From: Pseudomonadota bacterium
Lineage (GTDB): Bacteria; Pseudomonadota; Alphaproteobacteria; UBA1280; JAAZVW01
Assembly (NCBI GenBank): GCA_018623135.1
Contig: JAAZVW010000013.1
Span: 1 to 34,559 of the forward strand
Direction of reading: 5' to 3'
Length of the DNA: 34,559 nucleotides
The notes below the pieces were generated by a model. It was given only the letters and a program-made list of their open reading frames with translations, was not told the DNA's origin and ran no database searches. This document shows positions 1 to 26,012 of this stretch, one piece after another. Position numbers and translations under genes: made by a program. How positions within the stretch are numbered: position 1 is the stretch's first letter; the number at the start of each line of letters is the position of its first letter.

Positions 1-1881
1 CGTAATGCTTACCTAGAAGACCTAGAACAGCGCCACCGTACAATGCCATCTCAAACAAAACGCTTTAAGCAAAAAAATACTAAAGCCGAAGCACCTAAAG
101 AAAAGGTACTACGTGAAGTAACAATCCCTGAATTTATTACAATTCAAGAGCTTGCAAACCGTATGTCAGAACGTGGTGCAGACGTTGTTAAAACGCTTAT
201 GATGATGGGTCAAATGGTAACTGTAACGCAGACAATTGATCAAGAAACAGCAGCCATTATTGTTGAAGAATTTGGTCATTCATACAAACTTACATCAGAA
301 TCAGAAGTAGAAGAAAACATCGGCGGTGCAGAAGACAAAGCAGAAGATCTGCAAACACGTTCACCAGTTGTAACTGTTATGGGTCACGTAGACCATGGTA
401 AAACATCTCTACTAGATGCCATTCGCTCAACAGATGTTGTAGATGGTGAAGCAGGCGGTATCACACAGCATATCGGTGCCTACCAAATTACACGTAACGA
501 TGGCCAAAAACTTACATTTTTAGATACACCAGGCCACGAAGCCTTTACATCTATGCGTGCACGTGGTGCCTCTGTAACAGACGTTGTTGTGCTTGTTGTC
601 GCGGCAGATGATGGTGTAATGCCACAAACAATTGAGGCGATTAAACACGCCAAAGCGGCAGAAGTGCCAATTATTGTTGCGGTAAACAAAATTGATAAAC
701 CAGGTGCAGACCCTATGCGCGTGAAGACAGAGCTTATGAGCTATGAACTGATCGCAGAAGATATGGGTGGTGATACTGTATTTGTAGAAGTATCTGCTAA
801 ACAACGCCAAAACATTGGCGAGTTAGAAGAAATGATTCTTCTTCAATCAGAAGTTTTAGATCTTAAAGCAAATCCAAACCGTGAAGCAGAAGGCGCAGTT
901 GTTGAATCTCGCCTAGATAAAGGCCGCGGTGCTGTTGCAACAATTATTGTACAACGTGGTACGCTAAAAGTGGGTGATATTTTTGTCGCTGGTACAGAGT
1001 GGGGTCGCGTTCGTGCCCTTATTTCTGACCATGGTGATCGTTTAGAACAAGCAGGTCCATCAACACCGGTAGAAATTTTAGGTCTAAACGGTGTACCAGA
1101 AGCAGGTGATAACATCATCGTTGTTGATTCAGAGAAAAAAGCACGTGAAGTTGCAGAATATCGTTCTCGTAAAAAACGTGAAGAGCAAAACGCAGCACGC
1201 TCTAAAATGTCTCTTGAAAATCTGTTTGATCAAATTTCTCAAGGCGATGTGCTTGACCTTCCTATTGTTGTTAAAGCAGACGTTCAAGGTTCGGCAGAAG
1301 CGATTAATGAATCTCTACAAAAACTATCAACAGAAGAAGTTAAGGTATCTATCCTTCACTCTGCCGTTGGTGGTATTACAGAGTCAGACGTGATGCTGGC
1401 AAATGCCTCTCAAGCTCTTATCGTTGGATTTAACGTACGTGCAAACAACCAAGCGCGTAAAGTAGCAGAAACAGAAGGCGTAGAAATTCGTTACTATAAC
1501 GTAATTTACGATTTGTTAGAAGAAGTACGCTCTGCGATGACAGGTATGTTAGCCCCAGTTGTAAAAGAACAAGTTTTAGGTACAGCCGATGTGCGTGAAA
1601 CATTCCACGTTTCTAAAATTGGTACAATTGCCGGCTGTATGGTGTCGCAAGGTATTATTCGTCGTAACGCTAAAGCACGTGTTATCCGTGATGGTGTCGT
1701 TCTGCACGATGGTGAATTGGGTGGTCTTAAACGCTTTAAAGACGATGCTAAAGAAGTACGTGAAGGCTTCGAGTGTGGTCTAAGCTTCACGAAGTTTGAT
1801 GACATCCGTGATGGTGACCAAATTGAGTGCTACGAACTTGTAGAAGAACAAGCGCAACTTGGCGCGGCAACATCTGCATAA
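1..1881 (+). CDS. infB: Translation initiation factor IF-2 (5'-truncated by window edge)
   Basis: IF-2 is the GTPase that places initiator fMet-tRNA on the 30S subunit and promotes subunit joining. The reading frame is open from base 1, so the ATG at 43 is internal and the true N-terminus lies upstream; 626 residues are visible. An IF2_N-type segment ([12 protein letters not shown]) comes first, then the G domain with G1 [11 protein letters not shown] near residues 126-136, G2 [11 protein letters not shown]3 DTPGHEAF, G4 NKID and G5 SAK. Domains II to IV follow, ending in a C-terminal beta-barrel. rbfA starts 28 bases downstream with its own ribosome binding site, the usual nusA-infB-rbfA order. 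Family assignment is certain; only the variable N-terminus is missing. Confidence 0.98.
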
Positions 1882-5584: not shown

Positions 5585-6397
5585 ATGAGTGTAGAGCTTA
5601 TGTATTCTGTGGTCGGTTTTATTTGTGTAGGTTATATATCCTATGTTTTAGGGATGTTTTTTATGCAAGACAAATTCATCTTCCCAACCCATGAAGTTGC
5701 GAAAGAAATGACCATTCGTACCCCTTTAAAATATGAAGAAATTTATTTGTCTGTAGAAGAGGGTGTTAAGCTCCACGGCGTTATTTTTAAAGCTGCGCAA
5801 GAAAAGGCACCTGTACTTCTTGTTTTTGCAGGTAATGCTTGGAACGCCATTCGCCAAGCAGAAGTAATTAGTAACCAAATACCACAGGTGCATGTTGTAG
5901 GCGTTAACTACCGTGGTTATGGTAAAAGTGAAGGTAAACCTTCAGAAGCAGCCATTACAGCCGATGCCGTACAACTGTATGATATGGTGCGAGAGCGTTT
6001 TCCTAAAAACCCTATTTATATTTTCGGCTATTCTTTAGGGACAGGCATTGCAACCTATACAGCATCAGAACGTGCGGATACCAAAGGCGTTATTTTGGCG
6101 GCACCTTATGATTCTATGGCGCGTACAGCGCAAGATAAACACCCAATTATACCAGCAAGGTGGTTGGTTAAGCATCCGTTGCGCTCTTATAAATTTGTAC
6201 AATCGGTAGAGGCACCTGTAACTATTATTTCTGGTACAGAAGATACTTTGGTGTCGCCTAAACGTACACGCAGGCTTATTCAGCATATTCCAAATTTACG
6301 TGCTCATAATATTATTGACGGTGCAGACCATGGAGAAGTGGTGGAAAAGCTCATTTTCTATCGTTATATTCGTCAAGCGATGGGGTTAGAAAAGTAG
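5585..6397 (+). CDS. Membrane-anchored alpha/beta hydrolase (BEM46/ABHD13-like)
   Basis: The 270-residue protein begins with a hydrophobic segment (about residues 5-28) that should anchor it in the inner membrane, with the hydrolase domain after it. The fold is recognisable from VLLVFAGNAWN (oxyanion region), VNYRGYGKSEG, and a full triad: Ser150 in GYSLGTG, Asp220 in GTEDTLVS and His249 in GADHGEV. This is the pattern of the BEM46/YfhR group, whose substrates are mostly unknown. It is divergent from the thiolase gene and convergent with the PHA-synthase-like gene, ending only 9 bases from that gene's stop codon. Specific substrate cannot be inferred. Confidence 0.85.
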   Translation: MSVELMYSVVGFICVGYISYVLGMFFMQDKFIFPTHEVAKEMTIRTPLKYEEIYLSVEEGVKLHGVIFKAAQEKAPVLLVFAGNAWNAIRQAEVISNQIPQVHVVGVNYRGYGKSEGKPSEAAITADAVQLYDMVRERFPKNPIYIFGYSLGTGIATYTASERADTKGVILAAPYDSMARTAQDKHPIIPARWLVKHPLRSYKFVQSVEAPVTIISGTEDTLVSPKRTRRLIQHIPNLRAHNIIDGADHGEVVEKLIFYRYIRQAMGLEK

Positions 6398-6406
6398 CCG
6401 CTTAGG

Positions 6407-7579
6407 CTACTTTATTTCTTTAAGCCATTTTGCCCATGGGGTAAAAAAAGCTTGTTTTGCTTTTCTGCCCACCATAAGCCCAATATGCCCTGCGTCTACT
6501 TCTGTATGGGTGGTGTTTGGTATTTGTTCTAAAAGCCCTGTACTGCCAGCTGTCGGCACAACAGAATCTTTGCTGGCTGTAATAATATGTGTAGGTATCT
6601 CTAAACGCCCAGGGCTTATGAGATGAGAGTTAATCCACCAACGCCCTTCATGGGGTTTATTGTTTAAAAACCAGTGTTGGTACACATCTAAGGCAATGTT
6701 AGATTCTAGAGCGACACCATCAGCAAGCCAGTCTTCAATAGCAGTCATGCGCTTAAGTTGTTCTTCATCTTCTATTTGTGCATAAGCCGTGAGTCTCTGT
6801 ATGGCAGAAAGAGGGTCTTGGAGCACAAAAAAGCCCTGTATCACATCAATAGGTACCATTTTAGCATTTTTTAAAAAGAAATTGCTCCATGTTTTAGATG
6901 TTTCTAAAAAAGGCGCATAGGGTTGCTTGCTAAAATCCCAAGGGGCGGCAATTAAGCTTAAAGAGGCTAAGCATTCTTGGCGTAAGGTTGCGGCGGCAAC
7001 GGCAAGAGTTCCGCCCATGCAATAGCCTGCTAAATGTACTTTTTCGTTATGAAGGGCATAAATTTCATCTATAGCAGCGGCAATAATATTTTCAATGGCC
7101 TCGTCTAAAGATGTCTGTGAACTGTCGTCAGTCACAATAGGGTCTAGCCAATCAAGCTGATAAACGGTAAATCCTTCATCTTTTAAATGGTTTAAAAGGC
7201 TATAATCTGGTAATAAATCTAAGATATATCCACGGTTTACCATAGAAGGTATTACCAATACAGGAGCGCCTTGTATACAACCTTTTCTGAGTAAAGTTGC
7301 TCTATTGTAAAATGTGACTTTTTCATACTTGGGCTGTGGTCGTTGCCAATCAAATTCTCGATAACGCTTGACACCCTCTAAAAAGCTTTGCGTACTGTGC
7401 TCTTTTCTTTGGTCTTCAAGTTTATGCCATAACTCTTCAAATGGGTTTTCAATTTTAGGTAACACTTTAGCTGTGAGCTCAGTTAAATGCTCACCTCCGG
7501 AAAGATACATCATATAAAGTCCAATAGGTCGTGGCGCTGTTTGGCGTATCGCTATTGTTTTTTTTGTGCGTTTCGGCAT
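6407..7579 (-). CDS. PHA synthase-like alpha/beta hydrolase (short, class III PhaC-like)
   Basis: PhaC enzymes polymerise 3-hydroxyacyl-CoA using a cysteine nucleophile in a modified lipase box. This 390-residue protein has GYCMGG with Cys187, Asp338 in SKDSVVP and His365 in AGHIGLMVG, a complete Cys-Asp-His triad. The length is near the class III PhaC subunit (about 355) and well short of class I synthases (about 590). VLVIPSMVNRGYILDLLP and VYQLDWLDP are also typical of the family. AAAGGA precedes the ATG. It is divergent from phaR, a common pairing. No phaE subunit or phasin is visible, so whether it makes polymer or acts as a related acyltransferase/hydrolase is open. Confidence 0.85.
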   Translation of the reverse strand: MPKRTKKTIAIRQTAPRPIGLYMMYLSGGEHLTELTAKVLPKIENPFEELWHKLEDQRKEHSTQSFLEGVKRYREFDWQRPQPKYEKVTFYNRATLLRKGCIQGAPVLVIPSMVNRGYILDLLPDYSLLNHLKDEGFTVYQLDWLDPIVTDDSSQTSLDEAIENIIAAAIDEIYALHNEKVHLAGYCMGGTLAVAAATLRQECLASLSLIAAPWDFSKQPYAPFLETSKTWSNFFLKNAKMVPIDVIQGFFVLQDPLSAIQRLTAYAQIEDEEQLKRMTAIEDWLADGVALESNIALDVYQHWFLNNKPHEGRWWINSHLISPGRLEIPTHIITASKDSVVPTAGSTGLLEQIPNTTHTEVDAGHIGLMVGRKAKQAFFTPWAKWLKEIK

Positions 7580-19237: not shown

Positions 19238-20976
19238 TTAATTAATATCTATTACTTCTGCCCCAGGGAATTGGTCTAACACACGTTTAACCATAGGGTG
19301 CTTTTTAAATGTGGCGCGTTTTTCTTGTGCTTGTTGTGCAAGCTGTTCTGCAAGGGTAGAAATACCACTTACTTCCATAGGGCCTGCAAGCTCTACGTGC
19401 CAATGCTCACCTGTTGCTTGTTTAAGGCAAGCTATAAACTCTTGTTTAATATCATCAGGGCTTTTTAGGCCTGTGCCCTTAATATACAACCTTATACGCC
19501 CTTTGGCTACAGAAACAGGTCGCGCAGTTGTTCTCATTAACCGTGCGAGGTAGCCTTTGTGGCGGTCAATAGCTGAAACAACTTGGGCCCAAGTTACGTC
19601 AGCACCTAAAGGTTGGGGGCGAATCTGCTTTTTCTGCTGTTTTTGTTCAGTTACTGGGGCAGATTGTGGTTTAACTTCTTCCTTAGACGCTGATGGGCCT
19701 AGTGTTTTGGGGGCGCGTCAGCATCATCCCAAGGGGGCGGGTTATCGCCCATGGGTAGCGCATCTTGTACAGAAGATGAAGGTTCTGTTGGTGCGGCTGT
19801 TTGTGTCATTTTTTCCATGGCTTGTACCATGCCTTTGCCCTGTGCAAGTAATTCTACGGCAGAAACGGGTGCCATATAAAGCACACGAACAAGCGCCATT
19901 TCAACAGCTTCAGCAAGTCTGCCAGATTTTTTCGCTTCATCCATGGCTGTTAAAAGCATCTGATATGCACGAGAAAGAGATTCCAGCTTAATGCTTTTCG
20001 CCATAGCACCGCCACGCTCACGCTCTAATTGAGAAAGCTCTTGAGATTCGGTAAGTTTAGGCACAACTTTAAGGCGGGTAATAAGGTGTAACGTTGCTAA
20101 CATATCCGAAAGGACAAGAAGCGGATCATAGCCTCCCTGATATAGATTTTGAAAAATGCCTAATGTCTCTTCAGAATTGCCTGAAAGCATATTTTCTATA
20201 AGGTCATAAATGCGGGCTTTATCTGCAAGGCCAAGCATATCGTTTACTTTATCTAGGGTAATTTTGCCGCCGATAGAACGAGAAATTGCTTGGTCAAGTA
20301 ACGACATACCATCACGGGCAGAACCATCCGCGGCTTTAGCAAGCACAGGTAAAGCTTCTGGTTCAAATGCAATATCTTCTTGAGAAAGGATACTTTCAAA
20401 GTGTTTTGTTAAATCTTCTACTGTAAGTCGTTTAAGGTCAAAACGCTGACAACGAGAAAGTACCGTAACAGGGATTTTATGTACTTCAGTTGTTGCAAAA
20501 ATAAATTTAACATGCGCAGGTGGTTCTTCTAGCGTTTTAAGAAGTGCGTTAAATGCAGCGCGTGAAAGCATGTGCACTTCATCAATAATATAAACTTTAT
20601 AACGGCCTTGAACAGGTTGGTAATTTACACCTTCAAAAAGCTCACGAATGTCATCGACACCTGTGTGTGATGCGGCATCAAATTCTAAAACATCCACATG
20701 ACGACCATCGGCAATGGCTTGGCATTCTTTATCATCTTCTGCCCAAGTTACGGCAGGCCCATTTTCACAATTAAGGGCTTTGGCTAAAATACGAGCCGTT
20801 GTTGTTTTACCAATACCACGTACACCTGAAAGCACAAAAGCATGATGCACGCGGTTGGCATCAATTGCGTTTTTCAGTGTTTGTACAAGTGCTTCTTGGC
20901 CGACGAGGCCTTCAAAGTTTTGAGGTCGGTACTTACGCGCCAGTACCAAATACTCTTGTTTTGATTTTTCAGACAT
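19238..20976 (-). CDS. dnaX: DNA polymerase III subunit tau/gamma, joined by a -1 frameshift
   Basis: DnaX is the ATPase of the clamp loader; its tau form also links polymerase and helicase. The zero frame (20976 to 19699) gives 425 residues with Walker A GVRGIGKTTTAR, Walker B YIIDEVHML, the VLSRCQRFDLKR sensor region and domain III, close to the 431 residues of E. coli gamma. It stops two codons after the heptamer C-CCA-AAA. The -1 frame stays open for 155 more residues, ending in STLAEQLAQQ and KHPMVKRVLDQFPGAEVIDIN, an alphaproteobacterial tau-type C-terminus; total about 579. I start at 20976 because the longer frame to 21060 runs into the upstream terminator. Two zinc-ligand cysteines are replaced (Ala and Asp). 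A sequencing indel is the alternative. Confidence 0.9.
19699..19711 (-). other. Putative programmed -1 ribosomal frameshift site in dnaX
   Basis: On the coding strand the codons read GCG CCC CCA AAA CAC TAG. The heptamer C-CCA-AAA (19705-19711) fits the X-XXY-YYZ rule for simultaneous -1 slippage, with the zero-frame stop 3 bases after it. A GGGCG/CGCCC hairpin lies about 24 bases upstream in the mRNA (19735-19750). I see no clear downstream pseudoknot or internal Shine-Dalgarno stimulator. Confidence 0.65.
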
Positions 20977-21016
20977 TTTAAATGTGTCTTTCCCTGTTAT
21001 TTTTGCATGCGCGCCA

Positions 21017-21045
21017 AGCATAACATAAGCCTTGGCTAAACACAA
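21017..21045 (-). promoter_or_regulatory. Candidate dnaX promoter
   Basis: On the minus strand: TTGTGT (21045-21040), 17-base spacer, TATGCT (21022-21017). It partly overlaps the T tract of the preceding terminator and lies about 40 bases before the dnaX start. Confidence 0.5.
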
Positions 21046-21071
21046 AAAAAAGCCGCTCATGATGAGCGGCT
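21044..21071 (-). terminator. Terminator of the large lipoprotein gene
   Basis: Stem AGCCGCTC/GAGCGGCT with loop ATCAT, followed on the minus strand by eight T. It separates the large lipoprotein gene from dnaX. Confidence 0.88.
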
Positions 21072-21093: not shown

Positions 21094-24000
21094 TTATCGA
21101 TTAGAGTAGACCTTCATATAAGGCAGTGTTTTGTTCAGGCTGTGCAGCACAATTTCTCTGTTTCCTAAATAACTCAAAATAAAACTGTTTCCAGATTTAT
21201 CCGCAGGGTGCGGGGTTATCGGGTTACCGTTTAAAAGGTTCTGAGTCTGACAGGGAGAAGGTGTGAGATAGAGGTTATACACGTAGCAATGCACTTCCTC
21301 AACTTCTTCTGCATAGCTTAGATAGCCAGAAGGTTCCATCGCCACATAGACATCGGCAATGTCGAGGGTTTCAGATTGCGTAACATTGTTGTTCCATTGG
21401 ATGAGCCCTAAATTACCCGAGTAATCACTTGAATATTGTAAAAAGTAGTTAATGCCGCTATTGACGGGGGAAGACTTGGTTCCGCCAATGAGTAGCATTT
21501 TACGTTCTTTAACCGTATTTACAAATTCATAAAAATCAGAATCCCCAAGTAAATCCTTAAAAAACGGATATGGGCTCGGTTGATGGTACTCTTGAGCAAC
21601 ATAAGAAAGCGACAAAACATCAGGTCGTTCTGCTATGCAGCCATTTTCCCAAAGGTAGATTTTTGCAATTTCGCGGTGCATCTGCTCAATTGGTGAATCT
21701 GCCCACTGAGAGGCTTCTAGAATCTGCTCTTCGCCAAGGCTACGAATCCAGGTAGATGAATCTGAAAGACCAGGTATTGTAAAGCCTGTGTCATTCCATT
21801 TCATTATGTGATAGCTTTCTGCTGGTAAAAGCCCTTCTTGTTGAATGAATTGATCCAGCATCTTACGGGTAATAAAATGGTCAAACTGCGTAAAGTTACG
21901 TTGTCCTTCCATTTTAATATAGTACTCGTAAGGGCTGCCTTTTTGTGCTTCTGCTTCGGCAAGGGATAATCCTTGTTCCTTGCGTTGCATAACACTAATC
22001 CAGTTGCGGAAAAAGTTTGGCTCCATCATAAGGTGAGATTCTGCATAACAGCGGTTTTCCTGATAGGTATTAAGCTGGTCTACAGTTGGATAGGTTGCAC
22101 CAAATTCGGGCATAAATTTTTGCGCTAATGCCAAACTTAGGCTTTCTTTTTCTGGACGTTCAAACAAAGTGGCATGCATCAGATTTAAAAAAGCTGCTGC
22201 ATAGTCATTGATCAGGTCTAATTCACTGTTGTTTTGAACCTCCTCAACAGTTGGTATATAACCTGCAGATTGGTAGTAGTTTTTCCAGAGTGCGCAACTT
22301 ACGCTTACAGGAACTTGCTGCCCTGAAATAGGGTAGTTGGGGTTACCTGCAAGAGAGGTTTGCATGTTGTTACAGTCACTTTGAGTCGCATTTAAAGCCA
22401 TTTGAATAACTTGTGATAACGTAGGCGTTTGCACTGCAGGCACTTGGTTGAAACCAGTATCGGCCTGAATGTTTCCGACGCTATCATAATTTATTGTGAT
22501 ATTTCCGAGGCTTATGCTGCTTTGTGGTGTTTGACCATTAAAGTCGAGGTCAACACTTAAGCTTTGCGAATCGGAGGGATTGGTAGGATTGAACAAATCC
22601 AGTGTGACTGTGAGATGATCACCAAATGTTGGCGGTGTTGCCGCCGTTGTACTCACATAGAGCACCTCCAGTTGATTGTTGGTTAAGGCTTCAAGAGCAT
22701 CGCAGCCCAGCAGCATTGTTGTTTGCCCATTAAAGGTGCCATAAGTATTGGCCAAGTCACCACTAAAGGTGAATTGATCCGTAGAACGACCACCGCTTAT
22801 ACTAAAGCGTGCAATGGCGACTTGTGGCGCATAGGGCGCTAACAATGACAGTTGTGTAGACAGTTCAGGGATAATACCCGCCGCTGTGCTATCTAGCAAA
22901 TAATCTTGCAGCAGTTGATGCTGAGTGCCTTTAATAGGATTAATAAGAGCAGAGCCGCCATGATAAGCAGAGATAATTACATCATCTGCATGGGTCAGCC
23001 GCGTGGCTTCTCCTTGGTAGCTTTCATAAGCACCGATGCTGATGGCACCTAGCTGAGAAGAAATATTTCTGTTATGGCTAAAGTGCGCCTTAGTATCGGC
23101 GACAAGTTGGTTAACAAGTTTGCCTGTTGCACCATGGGAGACCAGTAACAGCGGCCCGCCATTTTCAACCAATGTTTTAACGCTTTCCAGAGCGTCCTGA
23201 TAGAACTGTTCTGAATAGCTATTGGCTAAATTTTCCAGAAAGAGCTGATATTCTGTTACAGGCAGAAGTGTTTCTGTCTGCATATCGCGCTTGTCTGGAT
23301 TATTACCCATATACCAGCGTGCAAAACGCAGTTGGTTCGGGTCGTCGGTGTCAATACTGCTAAAGTTAGGCAAATGATAAGCAATGACCTGATTTTCGGT
23401 AAGCCCTAAAACTTCTGCCAAAAAAGCGGCCTCTTGTTCAGCTGTGTAGCTGCTGGTAAAGGCATCGGCAAAATACAACACGCGGGTGGTATCGGGCCGT
23501 TGGCATTGGTCGGTTAGGAGCTGAAAATCGGGTTTGATAGGGTTTTGCAGGTTTTTATATTGCTCAATAAACCCAGCCATAGGTGCAACAATTGCGTTGG
23601 CATTATGTAAAATAATACCCCGCTGAACGGCATTGAGCTCACCAAGGTCAAAGCCTTCGGCCTGTTCAATCGCATTCAAAAAAGTTGCATCGTCTAAATG
23701 CTGCAAACGTAAGTCTGCTGCAATATAGGCTTGATTTAAATGGCTGACCTGCGTAAGTGCATCTTCGTATGAATCTCCATTAAAACGAGACAGTGCCAGT
23801 TGGCAATGTAGCTCTTGTTGTGTTTCAAAGAGTTTAGAACCATCTGCAAAGTTACAGCTTGAGCGCGGGTAGCCTAAGGCTATGGCGATCATTTCTTGTT
23901 TAGAAAGTTCTGGTTGGTTAGAAACAGAAAAAACAGCCTGATCATTACTAAAGCGGTAGCTTAACAGGGAAGTAAAACTGTGATCGGCAACGCCGTAGAG

Positions 24001-25545
24001 GTTGTTGAGCTCAACGATTTGATCATTGATTTCAACTTCCAGAGGGGTAGCAGGGGTCACAAAAGATTCTTCCGCCGGGTTGTGGTAGCTTAAGCTTATA
24101 TCAACTGCTGTGGTTTGTGTTAACAGACGTGCTTTACAGCCGAATGTAAATAAGCCATTTGCTGTGCTTTCAAAAACATCAGAAAGAGCAACAGCGTTGC
24201 CAGCCTGAGCGGCTTTAATGGTTAAGTTGCGGTTGTTTGTTTGCACATAACCATCTATGGGCATCATACCCAAATTGGCATCGCATTGCGCAAGGCCAAT
24301 AAGCTGTGGTTGCACCTGTTCTAAATGGCTGTTAATAGATGTAAAATCATCAATAGCCTGTTGGTAGTTTTCTCCGAGTTCTTGTTGAAGGGTGTAAATC
24401 ACCTCTGCCGTAATAGGTTGGTTTGTCAGTAAAGCCTGTTGTGCTTTAAGAACAGCCGTACGGCGTTGGTTAACAGTTGTGAGATCAACAGATTGATATT
24501 CTTTAACAGCGGCACCTTCTTCAAGCGCAATGGTGCATTCCCATTGGTCGGCAAGACCATTGTTGTTTGCATCATCTGTACTAAAAGGTGGGGTGTAGCT
24601 GCTATCGCAAAGGTTTGTTGCAAAACCTAAAGCTTGCGACAGAAGAGCAGACTCTTCTAAAATATCTGTCTGCGGTAAGAGTGTTACAAAAACACCTTCT
24701 TCTTCTGAATAGCTGTATGTTGCAACGCGTATTTTTGTTTCTGCTGGTTTGCCCACAAGACCTGTAAGATTAACGGAGCTGAAATTCAGTTCAAACGTAG
24801 GTACAGAACGTAAAGGCAGTAAGCCTTCGCCTTCTTTAAGTTGAACATAAATATCAAAAGACGCTAATTTACGAGCTTTGCAGCCAAGAGCATAATTATC
24901 ATTAAACTCATGCCAGCTGTATGTGTCTTCTTCTGTTACAGCAAAAAGGGTAGAATCGAACCCATCTGTAACTGGAGTTCTTGTGCGCAGTTGTACATCT
25001 TGCGGGTAGGTAATACCCGTAAGTTCGTAACATTGTGCCATGCCTACTGTTGCAGCCTGATAAGCATCTTTAACGCCATTAAGGTAAAAAAGGCTTGTCA
25101 TGGCTTCATTTAGTTGCTCGTAGCCGAGTTCCTCTTCTAAGGCTTTAAGTTGGCTTAAATGAATAGAGGCTTTGTAGGTGTTGAGTTCAGGGTCAAAGAA
25201 ATCCAGAACGTTATAGGTTCTGATAATGGCGTTGAGCAGGGGCATAACGGTTGTAAGATCAATCGTTTGCTCTGCTTCGTTAATATCGCCGTCTGCCAGT
25301 GCAAGGGTGCATTCCAAAACATCTGGTACTTTGTTATTGTTGCCGTCAACAACCGATGATAAGGGGTAAGCGCTTGCGCCTACGCAGTTTTGAGCAGGGA
25401 AACCCAGCTCGTTTGCCACTAACTCCTGTTGAGAAAGGGGCTTGGGCTGTGCTTTGGGTGTGTTGTTCTTGGATTTGTTATCCGAAGAACAGCTTGCGAG
25501 GATGAGCATCATGCACATGAAGCTCAAGAGTTTAGCGAGTTTCAT
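21094..25545 (-). CDS. Giant modular lipoprotein with inserted hydrolase-like domain, function unknown
   Basis: A 1483-residue protein with a lipoprotein signal peptide (LILASC, lipid Cys19) and an Asn/Lys-rich linker, so it should be anchored to the outer or inner membrane facing the periplasm or outside. It is built of repeated modules starting near residues 37, 300, 546 and 1040. Each opens with a pattern like LSxxxxxxALGxxxxxC and a second Cys before LAL, and modules 1 to 3 carry a later GC(K/D)A element (about 220, 468, 945). Modules 1 and 2 contain Ca-binding-like loops DGNNNKVPDVLEC and DANNNGLADQWEC. Module 3 holds about 230 extra residues with LLLVSHGATGKLV (about 798-810), an alpha/beta hydrolase-like nucleophile elbow. 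The C-terminal 350 residues are unrecognised. No secretion or adhesin family is assigned. Confidence 0.85.
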   Translation of the reverse strand: MKLAKLLSFMCMMLILASCSSDNKSKNNTPKAQPKPLSQQELVANELGFPAQNCVGASAYPLSSVVDGNNNKVPDVLECTLALADGDINEAEQTIDLTTVMPLLNAIIRTYNVLDFFDPELNTYKASIHLSQLKALEEELGYEQLNEAMTSLFYLNGVKDAYQAATVGMAQCYELTGITYPQDVQLRTRTPVTDGFDSTLFAVTEEDTYSWHEFNDNYALGCKARKLASFDIYVQLKEGEGLLPLRSVPTFELNFSSVNLTGLVGKPAETKIRVATYSYSEEEGVFVTLLPQTDILEESALLSQALGFATNLCDSSYTPPFSTDDANNNGLADQWECTIALEEGAAVKEYQSVDLTTVNQRRTAVLKAQQALLTNQPITAEVIYTLQQELGENYQQAIDDFTSINSHLEQVQPQLIGLAQCDANLGMMPIDGYVQTNNRNLTIKAAQAGNAVALSDVFESTANGLFTFGCKARLLTQTTAVDISLSYHNPAEESFVTPATPLEVEINDQIVELNNLYGVADHSFTSLLSYRFSNDQAVFSVSNQPELSKQEMIAIALGYPRSSCNFADGSKLFETQQELHCQLALSRFNGDSYEDALTQVSHLNQAYIAADLRLQHLDDATFLNAIEQAEGFDLGELNAVQRGIILHNANAIVAPMAGFIEQYKNLQNPIKPDFQLLTDQCQRPDTTRVLYFADAFTSSYTAEQEAAFLAEVLGLTENQVIAYHLPNFSSIDTDDPNQLRFARWYMGNNPDKRDMQTETLLPVTEYQLFLENLANSYSEQFYQDALESVKTLVENGGPLLLVSHGATGKLVNQLVADTKAHFSHNRNISSQLGAISIGAYESYQGEATRLTHADDVIISAYHGGSALINPIKGTQHQLLQDYLLDSTAAGIIPELSTQLSLLAPYAPQVAIARFSISGGRSTDQFTFSGDLANTYGTFNGQTTMLLGCDALEALTNNQLEVLYVSTTAATPPTFGDHLTVTLDLFNPTNPSDSQSLSVDLDFNGQTPQSSISLGNITINYDSVGNIQADTGFNQVPAVQTPTLSQVIQMALNATQSDCNNMQTSLAGNPNYPISGQQVPVSVSCALWKNYYQSAGYIPTVEEVQNNSELDLINDYAAAFLNLMHATLFERPEKESLSLALAQKFMPEFGATYPTVDQLNTYQENRCYAESHLMMEPNFFRNWISVMQRKEQGLSLAEAEAQKGSPYEYYIKMEGQRNFTQFDHFITRKMLDQFIQQEGLLPAESYHIMKWNDTGFTIPGLSDSSTWIRSLGEEQILEASQWADSPIEQMHREIAKIYLWENGCIAERPDVLSLSYVAQEYHQPSPYPFFKDLLGDSDFYEFVNTVKERKMLLIGGTKSSPVNSGINYFLQYSSDYSGNLGLIQWNNNVTQSETLDIADVYVAMEPSGYLSYAEEVEEVHCYVYNLYLTPSPCQTQNLLNGNPITPHPADKSGNSFILSYLGNREIVLHSLNKTLPYMKVYSNR

Positions 25546-25680: not shown

Positions 25681-25686
25681 TGAAGC

Positions 25687-25773
25687 TGTGTCAGAAGTGG
25701 ACGTTTTGTTGGGGTAACCCCGTCAGGCCCGAAAGGGAGCAGCGGTAACTCAACGCGGGTCATTTCTGGCACA
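25687..25773 (+). ncRNA. ffs: Bacterial small signal recognition particle RNA (4.5S)
   Basis: The conserved apical hairpin is present: GTCAGGCCCGAAAGGGAGCAGC, given here as GTCAGGCCC, tetraloop GAAA, GGGAGCAGC. The symmetric loop GTCAGG/AGCAGC binds the Ffh M domain. The outer stem closes GTGTCAGAA with TTCTGGCAC (one G-U pair) and is followed by seven T, so the RNA ends as its own terminator. The length, about 87 nt, fits the short 4.5S type. It partners Ffh and FtsY in co-translational membrane targeting. Closeness to dnaX and ybaB is usual. A minus-strand open frame covering it is spurious. Confidence 0.92.
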
Positions 25774-26012
25774 CTTTTTTTGCCTTAACCCTGTATTTGG
25801 GTAGGTGTGTACCTGTGGTTTCTCTTAAAAATTGTATAATAGGCACTAGATGTTGTATGTGAGTATTTTTTATATACAATTTTTCTTAAAAATATATGCT
25901 AGCTATTGTTTGTGGGTAAAAGACTACCTAAGCTTTTATTTGTTAAGGAATTTTTCCGCTAACATACCTTTTCCTATTATTAAAAAAGGGGTTTCCCCTT
26001 AAGGACTATATT
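25774..26012 (+). other. AT-rich leader region with hairpin before the acidic-protein gene
   Basis: This stretch starts with the SRP RNA T tract. It holds a possible promoter, TTGTAT (25853-25858), 16-base spacer, TACAAT (25875-25880), which would give a leader of about 125 bases. Just before the next gene's AAGGA lies a hairpin AAGGGG-TTT-CCCCTT (25987-26001). No open frame with a ribosome binding site is seen. Read on the minus strand the hairpin is followed by six T. Confidence 0.45.

Follow-up and report, generated by a model that had tools for sequence, protein, structure and literature searches.

A window of 34,559 nucleotides (the whole stretch of DNA analyzed here) from an alphaproteobacterial assembly (GCA_018623135.1, contig JAAZVW010000013.1) encodes, on the minus strand, a giant protein of 1,483 amino acids (aa). 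The best explanation that we can offer, with a probability of about 0.5, is that this protein is an outer-membrane lipoprotein, a fused, expanded and lineage-specific derivative of a secreted system that consists of a small partner protein with a calcium-type loop and an alpha/beta-hydrolase-like protein; the hydrolase-like domain would have become a binding domain and the repeated modules would serve as a scaffold. The open reading frame (ORF; 21094-25545) reads as a single gene, with the position and length given in an earlier, sequence-only reading of the window, which described a lipoprotein made of modules, one of them with an inserted hydrolase-like domain. That observation was confirmed and its interpretation proved partly right: with moderate confidence, we regard the protein as a variant based on an unnamed family and not as the product of an unexplained insertion.

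The analysis of this singleton led to a recurring, undescribed pair of proteins, in which a calcium-loop protein is encoded directly upstream of, and often overlaps, a secreted hydrolase-like protein. Provided that the giant protein is a fused, nucleophile-dead descendant of such a pair, it would represent a clean natural experiment in which an enzyme and its partner were turned into a structural surface protein.

Repeated modules of the giant lipoprotein

The N-terminal sequence of the giant protein, MKLAKLLSFMCMMLILASC, has the form of a signal peptide with a lipobox of the pattern [LVI][ASTVI][GAS]C, and the residue at position +2 after the putatively lipidated Cys19 is Ser, not Asp. Under the Escherichia coli rule, Ser at +2 leads to sorting to the outer membrane, so that an outer-membrane and possibly surface-exposed location can be predicted.

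The modules of about 250 residues proposed in the sequence-only reading differ in how well they stand. The repetition is clear for modules 1 and 2, with 31% identity and a local alignment score of 181 compared to a mean of 36 and a maximum of 56 among 200 shuffles. Module 3 is a weaker repeat: its N-terminal part aligns with module 1 with a score of 69 (shuffle maximum, 49), and the score of 39 with module 2 is not significant (33 of the 200 shuffles reach it). Plain alignment detects no significant similarity of module 4 to modules 1-2, and this module is identified as a repeat by its cysteine spacing only.

The 16 mature cysteines of the four modules (54/79/172/222, 313/337/421/470, 564/581/681/948 and 1058/1084/1166/1303), which are possibly paired in disulfides, are separated by repeating gaps of 17-26, 82-100, (50, 49, 267, 137) and 91-110 residues. 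None of 100,000 random placements matched this regularity, for a statistic that was picked after the data were seen. The fourth cysteine lies in a GCxA element throughout; the sequence-only reading noted the first three of these elements (GCKA, GCKA and GCDA) and missed GCIA, at 1302, in module 4. The excess segment that it spotted in module 3 comprises about 217 residues between the third and fourth cysteines (Cys681 and Cys948), and module 4 contains about 87 extra residues, likewise between its third and fourth cysteines. The DxNxNxxxDxxE loops that it saw in two modules are indeed present, at residues 67-78 and 325-336, that is, at the same position of modules 1 and 2; two such loops occurred in none of 5,000 shuffles. 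Judging from this 12-residue pattern, the EF-hand-like loops could bind calcium.

A probable degenerate hydrolase-like domain in module 3

The excess segment of module 3 includes a strand-elbow-helix sequence, LLLVSHGATGKLV (residues 798-810). This elbow resembles sequences of the form 'VSHSQGN', and for this reason 399 genomes of the phylum were scanned with a degenerate DNA pattern; the search recovered real proteins with a VSHSQGN-type motif. Additional members of this family (hereinafter, the HSQGN family) were found by tblastn on plasmids, and the stricter HSQGNLF pattern had no match in 96 relatives. The family members are secreted and share a leading Cys and the motifs C..K...NG, V[SA]HSQGN, D.VI and GH.F...YL; an alignment of 11 sequences shows no variation at the H, S, Q, G and N of the elbow or at D190 and H229. 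There is no Pfam or NCBIfam model for the family (two members tested), a literature search yielded no mention of its motif strings, and its members, e.g. L043-L057, L059 and L060, are annotated 'hypothetical protein'. Two ordinary Abhydrolase_1-type alpha/beta hydrolases are also encoded in the window (Table 1); one of them (6407-7579) was compared with the HSQGN profile and scores no better than chance.

Residues 681-890 of the giant protein most likely derive from this secreted family, with a match that is weak but collinear. In hmmsearch, the family profile scores the domain at 6.7 bits, with 1 of 3,000 shuffles higher; in hhalign, 199 columns align collinearly, from Cys681 to HQLLQDYL, compared to at most 73 columns in 400 shuffles. 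Because four motifs, namely the leading Cys, strand-elbow-helix, D.VI and H....YL, occur in the same order, common descent is likely, not proven. Unlike the family members, the domain is shorter, lacks the Ser nucleophile along with the QGN, and is embedded in a multi-module lipoprotein of 1,483 aa. In place of the invariant H-S-Q-G-N, the elbow reads H-G-A-T-G, and because Gly805 replaces the nucleophilic Ser, the domain is probably catalytically dead; Asp855 and His876 are retained at the other triad positions, as is the leading Cys (Cys681). The hydrolase-like character recognized in the sequence-only reading is thus retained as a weak, collinear family match, whereas an active enzyme is probably not what the segment encodes.

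The structure prediction that had been proposed as a check produced single-sequence models of low confidence, with a mean predicted local distance difference test (pLDDT) value of 39 for module 3 and 55 for the domain. The domain model (predicted template modeling score, 0.55) shows the expected beta-alpha order of strand-elbow-helix-strand, at the same low confidence. The predicted order and the position of the elbow are like those of general bacterial alpha/beta hydrolases and lipases, whereas the GxSxG nucleophile of these enzymes is missing from the domain.

The partner-hydrolase pair

In 16 of the 17 sampled loci, a frame for a secreted or lipidated partner lies directly upstream of the HSQGN hydrolase, usually overlapping it, or is fused to it, as is the case in Deinococcus. 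The partners, which were searched for by loop pattern (the one at L059 was recognized without it), contain a GxDxDxNGVRDD loop (GxDxDxNGVRDDVxxxI), helices and two Cys, the EF-hand-like loop being present in nearly all of them. No Pfam model matches the partners; only an extra N-terminal region of the L060 partner resembles FIMAH, below the cut-off. The pair recurs in beta- and gammaproteobacteria, Deinococcus and viral contigs (loci L042-L057, L059 and L060), and no Pfam or NCBIfam model covers the members tested. On two Vibrionaceae plasmids, the partner is annotated 'chromosome partitioning protein ParA', probably wrongly. A toxin-immunity role of the pair was considered and is not favored: both proteins carry Sec-type signals, and some partners have surface-type repeats upstream.

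Such a pair is also present in the genome of the giant protein itself. Contig C7 (positions 3-994, minus strand) encodes, at its edge, a partner lipoprotein and a truncated secreted hydrolase, the only pair found in about 300 genomes of the class. The 183-aa partner was found blind by the partner profile (37.6 bits) and is the only strong match in the class; the hydrolase fragment, which the contig end cuts before the elbow, scores 31.4 bits, and the match in this genome is the sole one that the HSQGN hydrolase profile yielded in 289 class genomes. The exact HSQGN-coding pattern does not occur in the assembly. The same contig (7598-11476, plus strand) encodes a 1,292-aa protein that, by eye, looks like a secreted adhesin of the filamentous-haemagglutinin type.

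The hydrolase-like domain follows partner-like modules in the giant chain, two of which (modules 1 and 2) carry an EF-hand-like loop, and several partners share with the giant protein a lipobox. The similarity is best, and significant, only along the loop. The C7 partner aligns with module 2 with a score of 56 along the calcium-type loop (1 of 500 shuffles as high), and a profile of modules 1 and 2 scores 19.2 against the partner profile, above all 400 column shuffles (maximum 19.0), over 18 columns only. The modules differ from the partners in their DxNxN....D..E loops, which lack the RDD of the partner loop DxDxNGxRDD, in two additional Cys and in their length of about 250 aa. The Cys spacing is comparable, at about 57 in the C7 partner and 49-50 in modules 1-2.

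Because the partner is upstream of or fused to the hydrolase in 16 of the 17 loci, the sequence-only reading of module 3 needs correction: rather than a hydrolase inserted into an unrelated module, the segment is more plausibly a domain that was fused downstream of a partner-like half-module. Under the scenario that we favor, a small ancestral partner that carried two Cys and an EF-hand-like loop and an alpha/beta-hydrolase-like protein would have been fused and expanded into the giant chain. Anchored to lipid by Cys19, the cysteine-paired, calcium-loop modules would form a calcium-stabilized stalk or scaffold; the hydrolase-like domain, with its Ser to Gly change, would bind rather than cut; and the protein may function alongside the ordinary pair of partner and hydrolase in its own genome. 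A more tentative proposal is that the giant protein is a single-chain form of the two-protein surface system, the non-catalytic binding domain of which acts alongside the active pair present at another site in the genome, or regulates that pair.

Alternative explanations

Several results weigh against derivation from the partner-hydrolase system. The hhalign score of 24.0 was reached by 2 of 400 shuffles and is tied by an ABC-transporter (ATPase) segment, over 120 columns; in a genome search at E<=0.01, the family profile misses the domain; and Foldseek with the low-confidence structure models returned no match at E<=0.001. On the partner side, no significant match to the partner profile was obtained over about 120 residues: module 2 attains 4.5 bits at best, with 57 of 2,000 shuffles as high, and modules 1, 3 and 4 show no match. 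We regard an origin of residues 681-890 in the HSQGN family as supported but weak.

A rather unlikely alternative is that the modules are unrelated to the partner family, with a convergent loop, and that a hydrolase-type domain was inserted in module 3 between Cys3 and Cys4. Convergence would fit the lack of significant similarity to the partners beyond the loop, and insertion would fit the location of the extra residues, given that module 4 is expanded between the same two cysteines. However, the leading Cys of the family hydrolases has its aligned counterpart in Cys681, these hydrolases typically follow a partner, and the genome that encodes the giant protein has a real partner with a loop like that of module 2. 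It appears still less probable that residues 681-890 form another alpha/beta (Rossmann-like) domain, outside the HSQGN family. The marginal scores, the equal score of the ATPase segment and the mixed nature of the weak Foldseek matches are compatible with such a domain, but these matches include several alpha/beta hydrolases (2zyr, 2qjw, 6fw5, 7r1k, 4lip and 7cy9), and the leading Cys, elbow, Asp and His are collinear with those of the family over 199 columns. Finally, an enzyme that employs Ser803 or Thr807 as an alternative nucleophile, or that works by a modified mechanism, as the aligned Asp855 and His876 and the retained strand-elbow-helix might suggest, is improbable, given that 4 of the 5 elbow positions invariant in the 11-member family are changed.

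Orphan status and genomic context

The giant protein is an orphan. Searches detected no homologs in its own genome (about 85% complete), 6 genomes of the order, 60 relatives and 385 genomes of the class (the latter searched with both the domain and the module profile), and none was found in plasmids, phages or pattern scans of GTDB and IMG/VR, the GTDB scans being based on a few peptide patterns only, such that absence there is not exhaustive. Borderline matches in class genomes were rejected; one of these (L005) reads as a Bug/TctC-type protein on the other strand. Comparison of the giant protein with Pfam, NCBIfam, PHROGs, PDB and PADLOC produced no meaningful match, and no Pfam clan matched the hydrolase-like domain at any reported E-value.

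The GC content at third codon positions is 0.40 in the giant gene compared to 0.26-0.36 in five neighboring genes. The gene is located between the signal recognition particle (SRP) RNA gene and dnaX. In two relatives (G005 and G003), the distance from the SRP RNA gene to the downstream dnaX is about 115 bases; in three others (G002, G016 and G019), the SRP RNA gene is near dnaX. No comparable ORF occupies this junction in the four order relatives that were read. Because the relatives have the two genes close together and no such ORF between them, the simplest reading of the giant gene is that it was inserted at the SRP RNA-dnaX junction in this lineage specifically. The SRP RNA gene, of the small bacterial type, and the lipoprotein gene are divergently oriented; among the relatives, the orientation of the SRP RNA gene with respect to dnaX varies.

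Table 1. Features of the giant lipoprotein and of its surroundings in the window
Feature	Residues	Coordinates	Strand	Basis
Predicted signal peptide and lipobox LASC, putatively lipidated Cys19	1-19	25489..25545	-	Sequence; lipobox rule is general knowledge
Module 1, Cys 54/79/172/222	~38-296	24658..25434	-	Self-alignment with module 2; Cys spacing
EF-hand-like loop DGNNNKVPDVLE, module 1	67-78	25312..25347	-	DxNxNxxxDxxE pattern
Module 2, Cys 313/337/421/470	~297-545	23911..24657	-	Self-alignment; Cys spacing
EF-hand-like loop DANNNGLADQWE, module 2; best match to partner-family loop	325-336	24538..24573	-	DxNxNxxxDxxE pattern; partner comparison
Module 3, N-terminal half, Cys 564/581, loop lost	546-680	23506..23910	-	Self-alignment; sequence
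Probable hydrolase-like domain, starting at Cys681	681-890	22876..23505	-	hmmsearch and hhalign against HSQGN family; weak secondary-structure support
Degenerate nucleophile elbow VSHGATG (family V[SA]HSQGN)	802-808	23122..23142	-	Alignment
Asp855, at the position of the invariant family Asp (D190 in the first sequence of the family alignment)	855	22981..22983	-	Alignment
His876, at the position of the invariant His in GH.F...YL (H229 in the first sequence of the family alignment)	876	22918..22920	-	Alignment
Module 3, C-terminal half, GCDA at 947, strand-rich	891-1039	22429..22875	-	Structure model; Cys spacing; sequence
Module 4 (Cys 1058/1084/1166/1303; GCIA) and C-terminal region, with a last Cys pair at 1420/1432	1040-1483 and stop	21094..22428	-	Cys spacing
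Terminator-like hairpin and T run, directly after the stop codon of the giant gene		21051..21071	-	Sequence
SRP RNA gene		25685..25778	+	
dnaX		19699..21060	-	
Abhydrolase_1-type alpha/beta hydrolase		5585..6397	+	
Abhydrolase_1-type alpha/beta hydrolase		6407..7579	-	

The neighboring dnaX gene encodes 453 aa as called and probably starts at an internal MSEKSK. It ends early, at C CCA AAA (slip site at about 19705-19711) followed by a stop, and a tau-like C-terminal part is found in the -1 frame; this entry, an early end with a continuation in the -1 frame, also covers L027, L029 and L030. Other bacteria are reported to have a dnaX split into two ORFs that requires recoding for the production of tau, in most cases with poly-A runs (PMC3711429). 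Among the relatives within the order, the slip site is C CCA AAG in G005 and G003 and A AAA AAG in G001, and dnaX of G002 is in one frame; these sequences suggest that programmed -1 frameshifting is needed for the long form of DnaX.

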